Below, piece after piece: positions 3,213-32,937 of a DNA stretch of 33,212 nt. Within the stretch, counting starts at the first letter, position 1; each line of letters begins with the position of its first letter. The position numbers and the translations under genes were made by a program. Below the pieces are notes generated by a model. The model was not told the origin of the DNA. It ran no database searches and was given only the letters and a program-made list of their open reading frames with translations. The stretch comes from Baffinella frigidus (taxonomy: Eukaryota; Cryptophyceae; Cryptomonadales; Baffinellaceae): NCBI GenBank assembly GCA_026770585.1, contig MU646845.1, positions 149,801 through 183,012 on the forward strand, read 5' to 3'.

Positions 3213-3445
3213 GGGGTCTTAGGGTTGAGGGTTTAGGGTTTAGGGTTGAGGGGTGGGGGGTGGGGGGTGAGGGGTTGAGTACTGGTGGGTGGGGGATGAT
3301 GTTCGAGGGATGAGGGCGGTGCGGTCAGCGGTCGGCGTTTGGGGTTCAGGGTTTAGGAGGTAGGAGGTAGGAGGTAGGGTGTAGGTTGTAGGGTGAAGGG
3401 AGGAGGGTTGAAGAGGCAGGGCATATTGTGTAGGGTGTGGGGTTG
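3213..3445 (+). repeat. Degenerate telomere-like tract
   Basis: GGGTTTAGGGTTGAGGGG, GGAGGTAGGAGGTAGG and related G-rich heptamer/octamer variants with the G-strand on plus. Non-coding. Confidence 0.75.
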
Positions 3446-13128: not shown

Positions 13129-13986
13129 TCACTCAAAATCGAGCGCGTGCATCGTTCTGCGGTGCGTCGCCAGGTTGCTGGACTGCGAGAAGGCCTTGCC
13201 GCAGGTGGTGCAAGCATAGGGGCGGGCGCCCGAATGGCTGCGCATGTGTTTCGTAAGGTGGCTGTTCACCGAGAAAGCCTTGCCGCAGACCGTGCAGGCG
13301 TAGCGGCGTTCGCCGGTGTGGGTGCGCATGTGTGCCGCCAGGTTGCTGGAGTCCGAGAAGGCCCTGCCGCAGGAGGTGCAGGCGTAGGGGCGGTCGCTGG
13401 AATGGGTGCGCATGTGTTTTGTCAAGCTGCTGGACTGCGAGAAGGCCTTGCCGCAGGTGGTGCAGGCGTAGGGGCGTTCGCCGGAATGGCTGCGCATGTG
13501 TGCCGCCAGGTTGCTCGACACCGCGAAGGCCCTGCCGCAGGAGGTGCAGGGGTAGGGGCGGACGCCAGTATGGGTGCGCATGTGTACCGCCAGGTCGCTT
13601 GACGCCGAGAAGGCCTTGTCGCAGGTGGTGCAGGCGTAGGGGCGGACGCCGATGTGGGTGCGCATGTGCTTCGTCAGGTGGCGGGACTCCGAGAAGGCCT
13701 TGCCGCAGATGGTGCAGACAGAGGGGCGGTCACCAGCATGGGTGCGCATGTGCGTCGCCAGGTTGCCGGACTGCGCGAAGACCCTGCCGCAGGTGGTGCA
13801 GGGGTAGGGGCGGGCGCCGGAATGGGTGCGCATGTCCTTGGTGAAGTCGCCAGCGTGCGGGAAGGCCCTGCCGCAGGTGGTACACTCCAAGTCGAGGTTG
13901 CCCTTCGCCCCCGCTTCCCTCTTACTCGACCCAGCGGAACCCGAACCCCCTCCCTGAGCAGAAGACTCTGCGCGCCGCTCGACCAT
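13129..13986 (-). CDS. C2H2 zinc-finger protein, nine fingers
   Basis: A 285-residue protein, predicted to be a nuclear DNA-binding regulator. Residues 1-33 are Gly/Ser/basic (KREAGAKGN); nine consecutive fingers follow. Eight fit CX2CX12HX3-4H with TGERPY-type linkers (SGARPY, TGERRY, SSDRPY). Finger 1 has Asp in place of the first zinc-binding His (FTKDMRTH), so it may not fold. The last finger ends HRRTMH. Helix tips alternate between an LTK type (fingers 3, 6, 8) and an LA type (2, 4, 5, 7, 9), suggesting growth by two-finger duplication. The ATG at 13986 has G at -3 and +4 and aligns with the paralogue at 25376 (both MV...), which supports it. No intron is needed. Its 3' flank carries element insertions. 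Antisense Ala/Gly-rich frames are shadows. Binding site and targets are unknown. Confidence 0.92.
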   Translation of the reverse strand: MVERRAESSAQGGGSGSAGSSKREAGAKGNLDLECTTCGRAFPHAGDFTKDMRTHSGARPYPCTTCGRVFAQSGNLATHMRTHAGDRPSVCTICGKAFSESRHLTKHMRTHIGVRPYACTTCDKAFSASSDLAVHMRTHTGVRPYPCTSCGRAFAVSSNLAAHMRSHSGERPYACTTCGKAFSQSSSLTKHMRTHSSDRPYACTSCGRAFSDSSNLAAHMRTHTGERRYACTVCGKAFSVNSHLTKHMRSHSGARPYACTTCGKAFSQSSNLATHRRTMHALDFE

Positions 13987-13999
13987 CGCAAGTTGGGGC

Positions 14000-14030
14000 G
14001 TGTCTTGCGCCGTCTGCGGAGCAATTCGAG
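14000..14030 (-). other. Conserved 5' flank of the C2H2 gene
   Basis: GTCTTGCGCCGTCTGCGG is nearly identical to 25396-25413 upstream of the paralogue. Homology then breaks at the SINE-like insertion starting about 14040. The later GTCAAAACAATGCCTCCTCC (14432 and 14948) corresponds to 25424 onward. Confidence 0.55.
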
Positions 14031-14039
14031 CAATTGGTC

Positions 14040-14135
14040 CTTGAGTCCTCTAGGTCCGTTAGGTTCTTCGAGCTCCCAACATAGGCGGACACCGGACCTT
14101 GTTCTGTGGAAAGGCCATGCTTCCTTTCGGAGCTT
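14040..14135 (-). mobile_element. SINE-like type A tail, minus orientation
   Basis: CTCTAGGTCCGTTAGGTTCT, TCGAGCTCCCAACATAGGCG, TTGTTCTGTGGAAAGGCCAT, GCTTCCTTTCGGA. It lies just upstream of the C2H2 gene. Confidence 0.75.
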
Positions 14136-18826: not shown

Positions 18827-19783
18827 GGAGTGCGGACATCGTCTGGGTTTCAGTGTTCAGTGTTCAGTGTTCAGTGTTCAGTGTTCAGTGTTCAGTGTTC
18901 AGTGTTCAGTGTTCAGTGTTTAGGGTTTAGGGTTCAGGGCTGACCCCGTGACGCCAGATGGCCGATCCTCTTCCACCACTTTCCTCCTGATGTCAGGTCC
19001 GTGTGCTCAGAATAGTGTCAGCGCTCCCTGACTTGCCAATGCAATCTGTCGAAGCAGAACAGTTAGGCGCTGCCCCCAGGGGGAAAGAGACCCACCTTGT
19101 GGTGCAAGGTCAGGCAAGAAAGGCAATACGGGGCGGGGGGGCTGCTGACCCTTGCTGGTTGGTGGCGCTCGGACGAATCCCCCCTTTGTTGCGTGGAAGA
19201 ACCTGGTTGTTCGCAGAGAAGCAGATTTAGGTTCTTACTCCCCCGTACGTCACATTTGAGAGAAGGTTGGCGATCAGCACCGTCAAATGACATGATCTCG
19301 AACAAACGATCCAGTCGATCATTTGCACTGGACCAAGGAACACGTCGACCTTCCTTATCCCCATGCCATCTGAAGCCTCTTCTCGCAGATGCGCTACGCG
19401 GGGGCAGGATCTGGGGGCGCACCTTCCCAGGCAAATCCGCCGCACCACCCCGCCCCAACAGCCCCCCCCCGCCATGTAGACGTAGACATCGTCCCCCTGT
19501 ACATGGACCCCCCAACGCGGTGGGAGCGCTGCGGGCGACGCTGGTGGGAGATGTGTTCGAGGCGCTGGGCGAGATGCCCGAAAAGAGGAGAATGAAAACC
19601 ACGGCGGAAAACCTCGCAGGTTGCGGCGTGTGGAGCCTGCGCACTGTTATTAGCGGCGTCTCTGGCGGGGGTTCTGAGAGTCGACAGCGTCTCGTGGCCG
19701 CTTGGTCGGCGTCCTCGCCGCGTTCAACGGCCATGGATTTTTCGCCGAGGAGCCGAAAAGTAAAGCGACTCGTTTGTAAAGCC
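18827..19783 (+). repeat. Segmental duplication copy 1, possible decayed gene
   Basis: Matches 27197-28139 along nearly all its length. Both copies begin GGAGTGCGGACATCG, then a TTCAGTG microsatellite (18849-18917 here), then shared GC-rich sequence to GTAAAGCGACTCGTTTGTAA. On plus, both copies encode a similar stretch (PNAVGALRATLVGDVFEALG, then GSESRQRLVAAWSASSP). An upstream half (WCKVRQERQYGAGG) is in the same frame in this copy but shifted by an indel in the other. A CTCTTCTCGCAG acceptor-like site precedes the second half. The minus strand is open as well. I do not recognise the product, and coding status is unproven. Confidence 0.6.
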
Positions 19784-19799
19784 ACTCCTCTACAGCTAC

Positions 19800-20230
19800 A
19801 TTGTATGGGCGTGGCCTTTCGACGTTGGGGGACATCGCTCCGGCGGCGGAGATCGGATCCCAGCGATTTTTGGCTCGCTGCATGCGTCTCGGTGCGGCGC
19901 GTCGGCTGGCGGCGGTCGGCGCCGCGTGCGCGGCGCGGGCGCCGACGGGCCGCTGGACTCGGGAACGGCTCTTCGCCAAGGGGCAGACCCTTTCAACGAG
20001 CGCCCAAACGCCCCCCCCTCGTGCCAGGCTGCATCCCCTCCCTGCTCCTTGTGCACGTTCTATTGCGTGCACATTCAGCCACGCGTGCATGCGCCGCTGC
20101 TCCCGCGTGTGTCCTTGCGTGCGATCATCTGCCACTTGCCCCTTCGCTCATGTGGCACCTCGTGATAGCGCCCCGTGCTCATGCGCTACTGCTCCCACAC
20201 TCCCCGCGTTGGGACTGATCAATGAGGGTT
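19800..20230. other. GC-rich region, no recognised gene
   Basis: Frames of 86-161 residues are open on both strands with Ala/Arg-rich, low-complexity translations. The plus frame that runs through here from 19097 ends at 20218. No domain is seen. Confidence 0.4.
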
Positions 20231-24764: not shown

Positions 24765-25376
24765 TCAGGATCGAGCGTGTGCATATTTGCGGTGGGTCGA
24801 CAGGTTGCTGGACTGCGAGAAGGCCTTGTCGCAGGTGGTGCAGACGTAGGGGCGGTCGCCGGTATGGGTGCGCATGTGGAGAGTCAGGCTGCCGGACGTC
24901 GCGAAGGCCTTGGGGCATGTGGTGCAGGCGAAGGGGCGGGCGCCGGTGTGGCTGCGGATGTGCCTCGTGAGGTCGCTGGCATCCGAGAAGGCCTTGCCGC
25001 AGGTGCCGCAGGCGTAGGGGCGGTCGCCGGAATGGATGCGGGTGTGAGTCAGGAGGTTGCTCGACGTAGAGAAGGCCTTGCCGCAGGTGGTGCAGGCGTA
25101 GGGGCGGGCGCCAGTATGGCTCCGCATGTGAGTTTTCAGGTGGGTGGACTGCGAGAAGGCCTTGGCACAACGCGTGCAGTTATAGGGGCGTTCCCCAGTA
25201 TGGGTGCGCGTGTGTTATGTGAGGTGACTGGGCGTCGAGAAGGCCTTGCCGCAGGTGGTGCACTCAACGTCCAGCTTGCCCTTCGCCCCACCCCGCCCCT
25301 TCTTGCTCGTCGCAGCAGGGCCCCCACCCCCTCCGTCAGTAGGAGACGCGTCCCGGCCCCGCTTGCTTGCGACCAT
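24765..25376 (-). pseudogene. C2H2 zinc-finger protein, six fingers, in-frame TAA at codon 54
   Basis: Paralogue of the 13129-13986 gene. The start at 25376 is chosen because the N-termini align (MV, Gly/Ser/basic linker, GAKGK against GAKGN, LDVECTTC against LDLECTTC), although an upstream Met exists at 25454. Six fingers with TGERPY/SGDRPY linkers follow in one frame to the stop at 24765; the last is CTTCDKAFSQSSNL..AH. The frame is intact except for TAA (25215-25217) inside finger 1, between HLT and HTRTH, where finger helices usually carry Lys, Gln or Arg. It is three fingers shorter than its paralogue. Everything after the stop is well preserved, so the break is recent, or the TAA is read through or recoded, or translation begins at an internal Met (25127). 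Function would be DNA binding; I treat it as a probable pseudogene. Confidence 0.8.
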
Positions 25377-27198: not shown

Positions 27199-28139
27199 AG
27201 TGCGGACATCGTTCGGGTTTCAGGGTTCAGGGTTCAGGGTGCATGGTTCAGGGTTCAGGGTTCAGGATTCAGGGGTTCAGTGTTCAGTGTTCAGTGTTCA
27301 GTGTTCAGTGTTCAGTGTTCAGGGTTCAGAGTTTACCCCGCCACACCAGGTGGCCGATCCTCTTCCGCCACTTTCCTCCTGTTGTCAGGTCCGCGTGATC
27401 AGAATAGTGTCAGAGCTGCATTGGCCTGCAATCTGTCGAAGAGTTGGGCGCTGTCGCCAGAGGGAAAAAGATCCACCTTGTGGTGCAGGGTCAGGCAAGA
27501 CAGGCAACGAGGGGCGGGGGGGGGGCTGACCCTTGCGGGTCGGTGGCGTTTGGACGAATCCCCCCTTTGTTGCGAAGAAGAACCTGTCTTGGACGCAGAG
27601 AAGCAGATTCAGGATCAGACTCCCCCGCACGTCCGGCGGCACATCGAGAGAAGGGTGGCGATCAGCACTGTAGATGACACGATCTCTGGCAAACGATCCG
27701 GTTGACCATTTGCACCGGACCAAGGAACGCTTCCTCATCTCCTTCTCTCCTCGCAGCAGGATCGGGGGCCGCACCTGCCCTGGAACATCCGCCGCCCCAT
27801 CCCGCCCCCACAGCCCCCCACCACCATTTAGACGTAGACATCGTCTCCCTCTGCAGGGGCCCCCCAACGCGGTGGGAACGCTGCGGGCGACGCTGGCGGC
27901 AGATGTGTTGGAGGCGCTGGGCGAGATGCCCGAAACGAGGAGAGCAAGCACCACGGCGGAGCGCAGCGCAGGTTGCGGCGCGTGGAGCCTGCGCGCTGGC
28001 GTCGGCGGCGTCTCCGGCAGGGGTTCTGAGAGTCGACAGCGTCTCGTGGCCGCTTGGTCGGCGTCCTCGCCGCGTGCAACGGCCATGATTTCCAGGTTTT
28101 CGCAGAGGATCCGATTGTAAAGCGACTCGTTTGTAAAGT
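27197..28139 (+). repeat. Segmental duplication copy 2, possible decayed gene
   Basis: Collinear with 18827-19783. TTCAGGG/TTCAGTG repeats occupy about 27216-27330. The conserved plus-strand frame PNAVGTLRATLAADVLEALG..GSESRQRLVAAWSASSP runs at about 27674-28120; the first half (WCRVRQDRQRGAGG) is in a different frame and stops at 27705. A TTCTCTCCTCGCAG acceptor-like site at about 27756 is shared with copy 1. No recognised domain. Either a spliced gene pair or two pseudogenes. Confidence 0.6.
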
Positions 28140-28208
28140 CACCCCGCTTGCTTTACCGTGGTGTGTCGTGTTTGTCAATTTATTACACCTTGTTTTCCCC
28201 AGGACCTC

Positions 28209-29212: not shown

Positions 29213-29920
29213 TTTGGGGTTTAGAGTTTAGGGTTTAGGGTTTAGGGTTTAGGGTTTAGGGTTTAGGGTTTAGGGTTCAGGGTTGAGGTTTGAAGGTTGA
29301 GGGTTCAGTGTTCGAGGCTTGGGGTTTAGGGTTTATAGTTTAGGGTTTCGGTCTTGGTTTAGGGTTTAGGTCTTGAGGTTTAAGGTTTAGGGTTTAGGGT
29401 TTAGGGTTTGGGGTTTAGGGTTTAGGGTTTAGGGTTTAGGGTTTAGGGTTTAGGGTTTAGGACTTGGGGTTTCGGTTTTAGGTTTAAAGGTTCAGGTTTT
29501 AGAGTTTAGGGTTTCAGGGTTTAGGGTTTGTGGTGTACAGCTTAGGGTTTAGGGATTAGGGATTAGGGATTAGGGTTTAGAGTTGAGGTTTTAGGGTGTA
29601 GGGTGTAGGGTGCAGGGTTTACGGTTCAGGGTTTACGGTTGAGTGTTGAAGGTTCAGGGTTTACGGTTTAGGGTTCAGGGTTTAGGACTTAGGATAAAGG
29701 GTTCAGGGTTTCGGGGTTCAGTGTTCAGGGCTCGGGGTTTAGGGTTTGTGTTTCAGGGTTTAGTGTTTAGGGTTCAGGGTTTAGGGTTTAGGGTTCAGGG
29801 TTTAGGGTTTAGGGTTCAGGGTCTGGTGTTTGGTGTTTAGGGTTTAGGGTCTAGGGTTTGGGGTTTAGGGTTTAGGGTTTAGTGTTTCAGGGTTTAGGGG
29901 TCAGGGTTGGTTTAGTCTTT
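29213..29920 (+). repeat. Large interstitial telomere-like tract, left part
   Basis: Hundreds of bases of TTTAGGG with TTCAGGG, TTGAGGG, GTGTAGGG, GATTAGGG variants, G-strand on plus. Frames such as 29643-29840 (GFRVQGLGFRVQG) only translate the repeat. Confidence 0.95.
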
Positions 29921-30076
29921 TCTGGGGCTACTACCCCAATAGGATCATCCACTCACCCCCCATAGCCTCGTGAGGGGGAGTCTGGGGATAGTACCCCATG
30001 TAGGATCCCGGAGTGACTTCCCCTCACGAGGCTATGGGGGGTGAGTGGATGATCCTATTGGGGTAGTAGCCCCAGA
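29921..30076. mobile_element. 156-bp palindromic element inside telomere-like DNA
   Basis: Arms of about 63 bp (29921-29983 and 30014-30076) are inverted with one mismatch, starting TCTGGGGCTACTACCCCAAT. The loop (about 30 bp) contains a variant of the arm end (TGGGGATAGTACCCCA). Telomere-like repeat continues directly on both sides. Confidence 0.9.
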
Positions 30077-30722
30077 TGTTTAGGGTTTGGTGTTCATAGT
30101 CTGGGGTTTGGGGTTGAGGGTTGAGGGTCGAGGGTTTATTGTTCAGGCTTTGGGGCTGAGGGGTTAAGGTTTGGAACTAAGAGTTTGGGGTTGAGGGTTC
30201 AGGGTTTGGGGTTCAGGGTTTAGTGATTAGGGGATAGGGCTTAGGGTTTAGGGCTTAGGGTTTAGGGTTTAGGGCTTAGGGTTTAGGGTTTAGGGTTGAG
30301 GGTTGAGGGTGGAGGGTAGAGGGTGGAGGGTTGAGGTTTCAGGGTTCAGGGATTAAGGCTTAGGGTTCAAGGATTTAGGGTTTAGGGTTTAGGGTTCCGG
30401 GTTCAGGGTTCAGGGAATAGGGATTAGGGTTCAAGGTTTAGGGTTTAGGGTTCAGGGTTTTGAGTTTAGGGTTCAGGGTTTTGGATTAGGGTTGAGGGTT
30501 GAGGGTTTAGGGTTTAGGGTTTAGGGTTGAGTTTTTTTGTTCAGGGTTCAGGGTTTAGGGTTCAGGGATGAGGGATGAGGGTTCAGAGTTTAGGGTTTAG
30601 GGTTTCGGGTTCAGGGCTTGGGGTTCAGGGTTTAGGGTTTAGGGTTTAAGTTTTAGGATTTCTGATTTCGGGTTCAGGGTTTAGGGTTTAGGATTCAGGG
30701 TTCAGGGTTCAGGGTGTCGGGA
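30077..30722 (+). repeat. Large interstitial telomere-like tract, right part
   Basis: Continuation of 29213-29920 with more GGGTTGAGGGTTGAGGGT and GGGTTCAGGGTTCAGGG variants. Confidence 0.95.
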
Positions 30723-31211: not shown

Positions 31212-32937
31212 ATGCGGATCGATCCCACATGGCTGGAGGACGGCAAGGACATGGCCCAGTGCCCTGTGTGCAGAATGGTTCTGGATGAGCCGACCGTTGG
31301 CTGTCCCGAGGGACACGCGTTCTGTCGCAGTTGTTACGTGCAATCCCTCTCCAGAAGAAAGCACTGTCCCATGTGTAACCACACCACAAACGCGAGCAAG
31401 CTGGTGAGGTGCCGCCCGCTCGAGGACCTCATCGGTCAGCTGCGGGTGCGCTGCAAGCACGGGCTCGAGGATGGCATCGAACCGGAAGCTCAGCGCAAGC
31501 TAGAGCCGCTGGGGTCGATGGGCACGGCCGACTTGCGCAAGGAGCTCGAACAACGCGGCATGAGCTGCAAAGGCCGCAGGGGCAGGCTGGTTGCGCGCCT
31601 GAAGGAGCACCGGCAACACCATACCCTGGATTGTGAGTGGAGGGTGGATTGTGAGTGGATGGGGAAGGTGTGCGATCTCCCCAGACACCTCGCAGAGAGC
31701 TGCAGGTACGAGCCTGTCGATTGCCCCAACTCAGTAACGGGCTGCACGGAGTCAGTGCTGCGCAAGGACGCAGCCCGCCACGCGTCGGAGACATGCGCGT
31801 ACCGCAAGAGAAGCTGCGAGCACTGCAGCGCCCTCTTTCCGGCGCGCGACCTGCCGGAGCACAAGGGCTGCTGCCCGGAGGCGCACATCGAGTGCCCGAA
31901 CGCGGGATGCGGCGAAACAGTGCCGAGACGCAGTATGCCGGATCATCGGGGGGGGTGCGGGCGAGAGGAGGTAACCCTAAACCTTAACCCTAAACCCTCA
32001 ACCCTAAAACCTAAACCCTAAACCCTAAAACCTAAACCCTAAACCCTAAACCCTCAACCCTAAACCCTCAACCCTAAACTCGAGACCCCAAAGCCTAAAC
32101 CCTTAACCCTAAACCAACTCCAAACCATAAACTCCAAACCTTACACCTTAAACCTCAAACCTTAAACCCTAAACCCTGAACCAGGTGGAGTGTCCGTGCC
32201 CTGGGTGCGAGGAGCGGATGGCGCGGTCGGAGGTGGAGGAGCATGTGGAGGCGTCAGGGGCGGTGCATCTGCGGCGCGCTTGGAGGAGGGTGGCCGAGAT
32301 GGAGAGCACGATCGCTCAAGCGGAACACGCGACCGTGGAGCATGCAGGAGCGATCGTAAAGCACGCAGACATGATGAAGGCGCAGGAAGAGTTGCTCCTT
32401 CGTTGCGATATCCAGATCGCTGCGCTGAAACATGAGGTTGCTGGGCTGATTGCCAAGCAGGGGCAGGATCTCGCAACGATGACCGCCGGGCTTAGCGCGT
32501 GGAGCAGGGTGGCGGAAACGGAGGAGACGGTGATGGAGCAAGACGACACGATCGAGGAGCAGAGCAGAGTTATTGAAGGGCTGCAGAGGGCCCTTCAAGC
32601 GCTCACGCACGTGTTCACATGGAGCACCGACACCTCGTGGAGTGTCAAAACGTCTGGATCGTTTACATTCACGGACGGGGTGCGTGGGCACTGTCGGACC
32701 GGCAAACCAGCGGGGGCAGCAGCTGGGGTGGTCAAGAGATGGATGGGCTTCCAACTCGAGGAGGGGCCTGCTGGCTGCACCATGCACTTCAAGTGCTCCA
32801 TCCTGGACAAGAACGACACGGTTCTCCGCGTCGTCGGCCTCCCGGAGTGGGGGGACTTCCAGAAGCCTCCCGACAAAATCCCTGAGACGGGGTGGGGAGC
32901 GATCTTCAAGCTGACGGAAACAGACAAGGCGGGCGCG
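31212..32937 (+). CDS. RING / SAP / TRAF zinc-finger / MATH-like protein, 3' partial
   Basis: Candidate E3 ubiquitin ligase or TRAF-like adaptor. Exon 1 is 31212-31970 (253 codons), exon 2 is 32185-32937 (251 codons), both phase 0; the gene continues past the window. The ATG at 31212 is the first Met after an in-frame TGA at 31185. Residues 17-55 form a C3HC4 RING (CPVC, GCPEGHAFCRSC, CPMC). Residues about 103-133 resemble a SAP motif (DLRKELEQRGMSCKGRRG). Residues 141-275 hold TRAF-type Cys/His fingers; one is split by the intron, with H245/C249 in exon 1 and C256-C261-H273 in exon 2, which confirms the splice. Residues about 285-393 are a likely coiled coil, and 395-504 a MATH-like domain (FTWSTDTSWSV, MHFKCSILDKNDTVLRVV). 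SAP motifs usually bind nucleic acid, so a nuclear role is possible. The substrate is unknown. Antisense frames are shadows. Confidence 0.88.
31971..32184 (+). other. Intron 1 of the TRAF-like gene, made of CCCTAAA-type repeat
   Basis: Donor GAG|GTAACC and acceptor GAACCAG|GTGG, 214 nt, phase 0. The whole interior is AACCCTAAACCCTAAAACC-type repeat with CCCTCAA and ACTCCAAACC variants. Without splicing, the exon 1 frame stops at 32021. With splicing, a zinc finger is completed across the junction. AGGT occurs at both edges. Confidence 0.85.

Follow-up and report, generated by a model that had tools for sequence, protein, structure and literature searches.

The locus studied here raises the question of how telomere-type repeat comes to lie inside a protein-coding gene, at a point where the two flanking reading frames fit together without it. 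The origin of new introns has long been in question, and recent gains are of particular value when the donor can be recognised. We analyzed a stretch of 33,212 nucleotides, called the window below (C533:149801-183012), from the assembly of the cryptophyte Baffinella frigidus (382,457,362 bases, 1364 contigs). Segment 31971-32184 is, in our judgement, probably a recent spliceosomal intron that was made by insertion of (CCCTAAA)n at a coding AG|GT site, an event repeated in the genome.

The protein-defined junction and the segment that interrupts it

The host gene and the arrays in it comprise the following features, all on the + strand:
31212..31970: upstream coding exon with a RING finger, a SAP domain and zf-TRAF fingers (Pfam; homologue; splice alignment)
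31860..32244: zf-TRAF finger, protein residues 217-273, complete only without 31971-32184 (Pfam, both versions)
31969..31972: AGGT at the 5' edge of the intron; AGGT is also present at 32183-32186
31971..32184: putative telomere-like intron, 214 bp, phase 0, GTAACCC...GAACCAG
32185..32937: second coding exon with the end of the zf-TRAF finger, a coiled-coil-like stretch and a conserved C-terminal domain
32938..33212, to the window end: probable second telomere-like intron, donor GCG|GTGAAAACCCTC

The upstream exon comprises 253 codons and ends GAG GAG|; the homologue P0001 starts MRIDP at the same residue as this exon. The C-terminal domain of the second exon reads VFTWSTD...CTMHFKCSILDK...DKAGA. 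The splice junction falls after residue 253, and the ends of the intron are exact (GGCGAGAGGAG|GTAACCCTAAACC...CCCTGAACCAG|GTGGAGTGTCCG), with a GT donor and an AG acceptor at the protein-defined junction 31971/32184, as in spliceosomal GT-AG introns. If the segment is retained, stops arise inside it in all three frames; its removal restores the reading frame exactly.

A preliminary description of this DNA had claimed that the junction is fixed by the protein, the zf-TRAF finger being complete only without 31971-32184. This is borne out by homologues, by Pfam and by splice alignment. At the junction, 54 of the 60 homologues are contiguous (the others are P0016, P0027, P0030, P0037, P0057 and P0060). 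With the segment removed, the best zf-TRAF match covers the whole Pfam model at residues 217-273 and the protein scores 50.3 bits; if it is kept, an earlier finger (162-217) becomes the best match, at a protein score of 45.9 bits. Used separately in a splice aligner, P0001, P0014 and P0002 each returned 31971-32184 in phase 0; two extra introns appeared with P0014 and one with P0002, none of them common to two queries. The segment had also been described as a phase 0 intron that ends GAACCAG and is repeat throughout, and this holds as well: under the looser repeat threshold, every one of the 214 bases counts as telomere-like. The repeat is a degenerate form of CCCTAAA and reaches to a few bases from both splice sites. 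Judged by these marks, 31971-32184 looks like a complete spliceosomal intron, which would be spliced from the transcript.

Paralogues were compared at the same site. The family loci were the best 30 of 116 matches to P0014, of which 25 were aligned after omission of 5 duplicates (L046, L047, L049, L053 and L055; L055 was reused, joined to L083, for C215). Nineteen of the family loci span the site; 18 are empty, and the window gene alone carries the intron there. Since the intron is private to one of 19 loci, gain is the simpler reading, with absence as the likely ancestral state and a one-step insertion as the presumed event. The empty sites read GAGGAG|GT in 16 of 18 cases, indicating that the AG|GT site existed beforehand. 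Where one of the 60 homologues is assigned to a named organism, that organism is Baffinella frigidus, and the deposited proteins P0020, P0043, P0056 and P0057 match loci in the window's own assembly at 100%.

The second array of the gene sets in at another conserved site, GCG|GTGAAAACCC; most full-length homologues continue there as KAGA|VRADGSIKL. Past the window end, the genome reads N, owing to a gap or to withheld sequence. A 64-bp telomere-like intron occupies this second conserved site in L041. The paralogue L043 matches L041 at 93% identity over 1262 bp and contains two copies of the stretch, neither with the intron. Inspection by eye showed that five of the 60 database homologues (P0001, P0018, P0019, P0047 and P0054) end in translated CCCTAAA repeat, which suggests the same phenomenon in relatives. 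As a separate observation, P0023 and the locus L035 (C330) differ by one residue in the first 176 amino acids and are then about 80% alike, exactly from the telomere-like intron, which looks as if recombination had occurred within the repeat. The best matching place for P0023 is C330 (98%, then 85%), but C330 measures 406,541 bp and the contig of P0023 444,573 bp, so they are different contigs; the protein's own locus was not found.

Recurrence, orientation and splice-site content

Telomere-like repeat is abundant in this genome. The exact 21-mer CCCTAAAx3 gave 53,120 matches in the assembly (overlapping ones counted) versus 27 for the reversed control, and the repeat makes up 17% of the 13.6 kb readable within one 60-kb sample. 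In the window, 9.4% of the sequence is telomere-like at the stricter threshold versus 0.3% after shuffling, and 13.3% at the looser threshold versus 2.5%. It is a tandem telomere-type repeat inside a chromosome, which is the feature of an interstitial telomeric sequence. Of 20 scaffold ends examined, 11 were readable, and one of these ended in such an array, in degenerate form, which leaves the repeat as a candidate for the organism's own telomere.

Several other observations were made by eye in the window. An extended, almost perfect inverted repeat, GGGGCTACTACCCCAATAGGATCATCCACTCACCCCCCATAGCCTCGTGAGGGG with its reverse, lies at 29919-30080 within a telomere-like array and resembles a small hairpin element inserted into the repeat. 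Reading frames of tandem C2H2-like zinc fingers, with a unit of 84 bp, are located at 13129-14049 (-) and 24765-25214 (-). Two long and apparently related reading frames, perhaps copies of one dispersed repeat, are located at 19063-19992 (-) and 27385-28152 (-). An IMG/VR scan with protein P0006 found no relative, and a scan with the pattern (CCCTAAA)3CCC matched 17 contigs. Their arrays, viewed by eye without gene models, had no intron look and were set aside. In these viral contigs (L001-L017), the TAAACCC arrays are short, and several lie just 5' of an ATG.

For a wider survey, 42 introns with ends fixed by protein alignment were compiled: the TRAF family contributed 15, and six kinesin loci contributed 27. 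These six loci were taken from 45 kinesin matches because they had several exons or exons lying close together, a choice made ahead of any look at their repeat content. Introns with at least 75% telomere-like sequence were classed as telomere-like. This class holds 12 of the 42 introns, or 11 of 41 without the window's intron, and 6 of the 27 in kinesin loci. The preliminary description had named uniqueness in the genome as a point against its reading; the intron is not unique, as 11 more telomere-like introns are present at eight other loci (L035, L036, L041, L056, C215, L077, L081 and L082).

The telomere-like introns range from 64 to 1705 bp. The longest splits the codon before the P-loop GSGKT of a kinesin; its removal gives YGPTGSGKTYTM, and its placement was identical with all 16 of 16 queries, including P0065, which bears the name of a Guillardia theta MMETSP transcript. 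At C215, a 552-bp telomere-like intron is removed in the deposited gene model T484DRAFT_1799676 (P0016), and the last exon is identical. Seven introns were viewed over all or nearly all of their length (those of the window, L035, L041, L056, C215 and L082, and the second of L077) and are essentially repeat alone. Five introns are only partly telomere-like (0.27-0.48 C-sense), and further ones fall below that.

The set of 42 was defined as follows. From the TRAF rows, we dropped L034 2668-2844, L038 133-1469 and L042 1177-1504 (2/6 queries each), L043 2278-2762 (3/6), and L052 1882-2052 (4/6), the last because the deposited protein reads through. L052 1351-1439 (4/6) was swapped for C215 985-1058, and L035 2260-2564 (2/6) and 2260-2591 (3/6) for 2260-2543. 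Single-alignment proposals in L043, L052 and L054 were left unused. Kinesin rows were considered if supported by at least 3 of 16 queries. Among these, L077 2225-2407 (11/16, 0.71 telomere-like) was swapped for 2225-2356 (5/16, same donor, 0.98), and L081 1564-1759 and 1646-2023 (3/16 each) and L082 2039-2300 (5/16) were dropped. Two members of the set are composite or better read otherwise: L036 2133-2651 includes an 80-bp G-sense block and a second array, and L082 2048-2300 is better read as a GC-AG intron at 2059-2293.

The repeat in these introns is strongly biased in orientation. Over all 42, 6366 telomere-like bases are C-sense (CCCTAAA on the sense strand) versus 312 G-sense, and in the introns of the kinesin loci the numbers are 4415 versus 212; in the kinesin exons, 36 of 5179 bases are telomere-like. 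Both GT and AG are absent from a perfect CCCTAAA unit. The interior of the window's intron (31976-32181) has no GT and two AG, compared with 31 GT and 27 AG on the opposite strand of the segment. With introns of at least 10% G-sense repeat omitted (which takes one intron from each class and leaves 11 telomere-like ones and 29 others), the density of GT per 100 bp is 0.58 in telomere-like introns versus 5.33 in the others, and that of AG is 2.09 versus 5.24. On the opposite strand of the same 11 telomere-like introns, GT and AG reach 13.6 and 10.2 per 100 bp. Together, the C-sense bias and the splice-site counts indicate that orientation matters, as expected if only the splice-site-poor strand is tolerated.

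Edges of the repeat and its mode of arrival

The preliminary description had taken AGGT at both edges of the intron as a sign of duplication upon insertion. The sequence is present, but we rejected it as proof, since ordinary introns share as much: 0-7 nt of junction sequence is shared in the 30 other introns versus 0-5 nt in the 12 telomere-like ones. The latter have no constant shared end.

Longer duplications were found elsewhere. In kinesin L082, 235 bp of repeat at 2059-2293 are flanked by the 10-nt GGCACGAGCC, duplicated at both ends. This segment was read as a GC-AG intron, whose removal leaves protein sequence across the junction; the GT-only aligner had placed the intron differently. 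In the family member L036, G-sense repeat at 2133-2212 is flanked by a 23-nt duplication, with CAGCAG|GTTC at both ends. Since short shared ends are ordinary here, only these 10- and 23-nt cases count as footprints. Among 80 arrays (162 kb), flank repeats of at least 9 nt were found at 7 versus 0.8 with mispaired flanks, and those of at least 15 nt at one versus 0.4. Repeats of this longer class do not exceed the mispaired level, so that the excess is due to the middle lengths. Moreover, two of the seven arrays, both in L081, involve one exon piece, and one, in L061, lies within a longer duplication.

Two further arrangements of repeated coding sequence were seen. In L036, an exon piece of about 40 bp (GACTGTTGGATGGGCTT...) occurs three times (2680-2720, 2930-2970 and 3220-3262). 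After each copy come GTAT and a filler that differs from copy to copy; telomere-like units open the filler behind the first copy and that behind the third. In L061, a coding-like stretch of about 50 bp ending AAG|GTCCGCC lies on both sides of a telomere-like array (860-910 and 1010-1070).

A target duplication of fixed length was not found: it measures 0-5 nt in the 12 introns as first called and 10 and 23 nt in the clear cases. Such varying length fits end joining better than a transposase, and the repeat may have been joined into the gene in this way.

Among the alternatives, the one that survives best holds that the intron predates the repeat, which expanded in an ordinary intron or replaced it. 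A repeat so abundant in the genome would be expected to invade older introns also, and partly telomere-like introns are found, e.g., L036 1085-1508 (0.48 C-sense) and L081 3901-4520 (0.39). We nevertheless consider this history unlikely for the window's intron, given that its site is empty in 18 of 19 family loci and that the repeat extends nearly to both splice sites. The presence of an intron in L041 versus its absence in the paralogue L043 points the same way, as does the duplicated target sequence directly beside the repeat in L082 and L036.

Somewhat less probable still is that a mobile, introner-like element with telomere-like sequence was moved by a transposase and made the intron. Introners are known to yield many introns at once, and the short shared ends observed here (0-5 nt) resemble the direct repeats of 3-5 nt at intron boundaries in Amoebophrya, as given in the available part of PMC7789003. 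The varying duplication length, the range of intron lengths from 64 to 1705 bp, and the composition of the seven introns seen nearly or wholly in full, essentially repeat alone, all argue against such an element.

It is very improbable that the segment is an unspliced, gene-breaking insertion and the gene a pseudogene. Stops do occur in every frame when the segment is retained, and the homologues ending in translated repeat (5/60) are what a prediction reading into the repeat would give, spliced or not; yet the reading frame continues open on either side without a shift, GT and AG stand exactly at the ends, and at another locus a comparable segment is removed in a public gene model. An assembly artefact, in which the assembler misplaced repeat, would be in keeping with the high abundance of the repeat and with the N past the window end. 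It can be practically dismissed, as repeat introns recur at nine loci, each between stretches of coding sequence, and the frame is exactly restored once the insert is taken out.

Insertion at AG|GT, the reading that we prefer, would proceed as follows. Telomere-type (CCCTAAA)n DNA, possibly supplied by a telomere or telomerase, would be inserted into coding sequence at an AG|GT site, and splicing would remove the insert and restore the protein. An insert in CCCTAAA sense would contain few internal splice sites and could be spliced at its edges, using a GT and an AG that were already there or arose by duplication. In the reverse orientation, every perfect unit would offer both a GT and an AG.

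Known systems and the meaning of the finding

Interstitial telomeric sequences of primates and rodents have been attributed to one-step insertion at repaired double-strand breaks, the target being left without change or with a deletion, an addition or a duplication; among 25 primate and 130 rodent cases, duplication was found in 4 and 6, respectively (available part of Nergadze et al. 2007, PMC2246262). The likeness to the present case is telomere-type repeat inside chromosomes; as far as that part of the article extends, whole introns are described only here. A dense chromosomal spread of telomere-like heptamers is also shared with Eimeria, with its bands of TTTAGGG repeat, and with Plasmodium knowlesi, with its interspersed telomere-like repeats; introns made from the repeat are not described in the accessible part of that article (PMC9131526).

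The closest intron source appears to be introners, described in Amoebophrya, with Micromonas and Aureococcus cited in the same article (PMC7789003, available part). There as here, repetitive DNA gives rise to many introns with usable splice sites and with direct repeats at the boundaries. Introners, as that part presents them, have inverted repeats and form element families, whereas the introns here have a telomere-like tandem body and vary in length and in their duplications. Direct repeats at intron borders were read as insertion footprints by Rogers and Bendich (2025; PMC11782384, accessible part). The same argument from duplicated ends is used here, but the short shared ends are no longer than in ordinary introns. 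Among the matches listed in a literature search, seen as title and abstract start, none described introns made of telomeric repeat; most subscription papers lay outside this scope, which makes it weak evidence.

The preliminary description had suggested that telomeric-repeat DNA, for example from break repair, can become an intron in this genome. Its first part appears to hold, given the recurrence of such introns and the empty paralogous sites; the insertion may have taken place at repaired double-strand breaks. We give even chances to the broader proposal that telomeric repeat, added or captured in break repair, is a major continuing source of introns here and that the heptamer, with a C-rich strand free of GT and AG, serves as an almost ready-made intron body, so that orientation decides tolerance. 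If true, orientation-dependent tolerance of insertions would account for the sense-strand bias, and the GT- and AG-free strand provides a simple, testable reason why telomeric repeat could be tolerated inside genes. The findings indicate an unusual route of intron gain. The donor is easily recognised and the gain is apparently recent and recurrent, so that gain, target duplication and sense-strand bias can be counted genome-wide.
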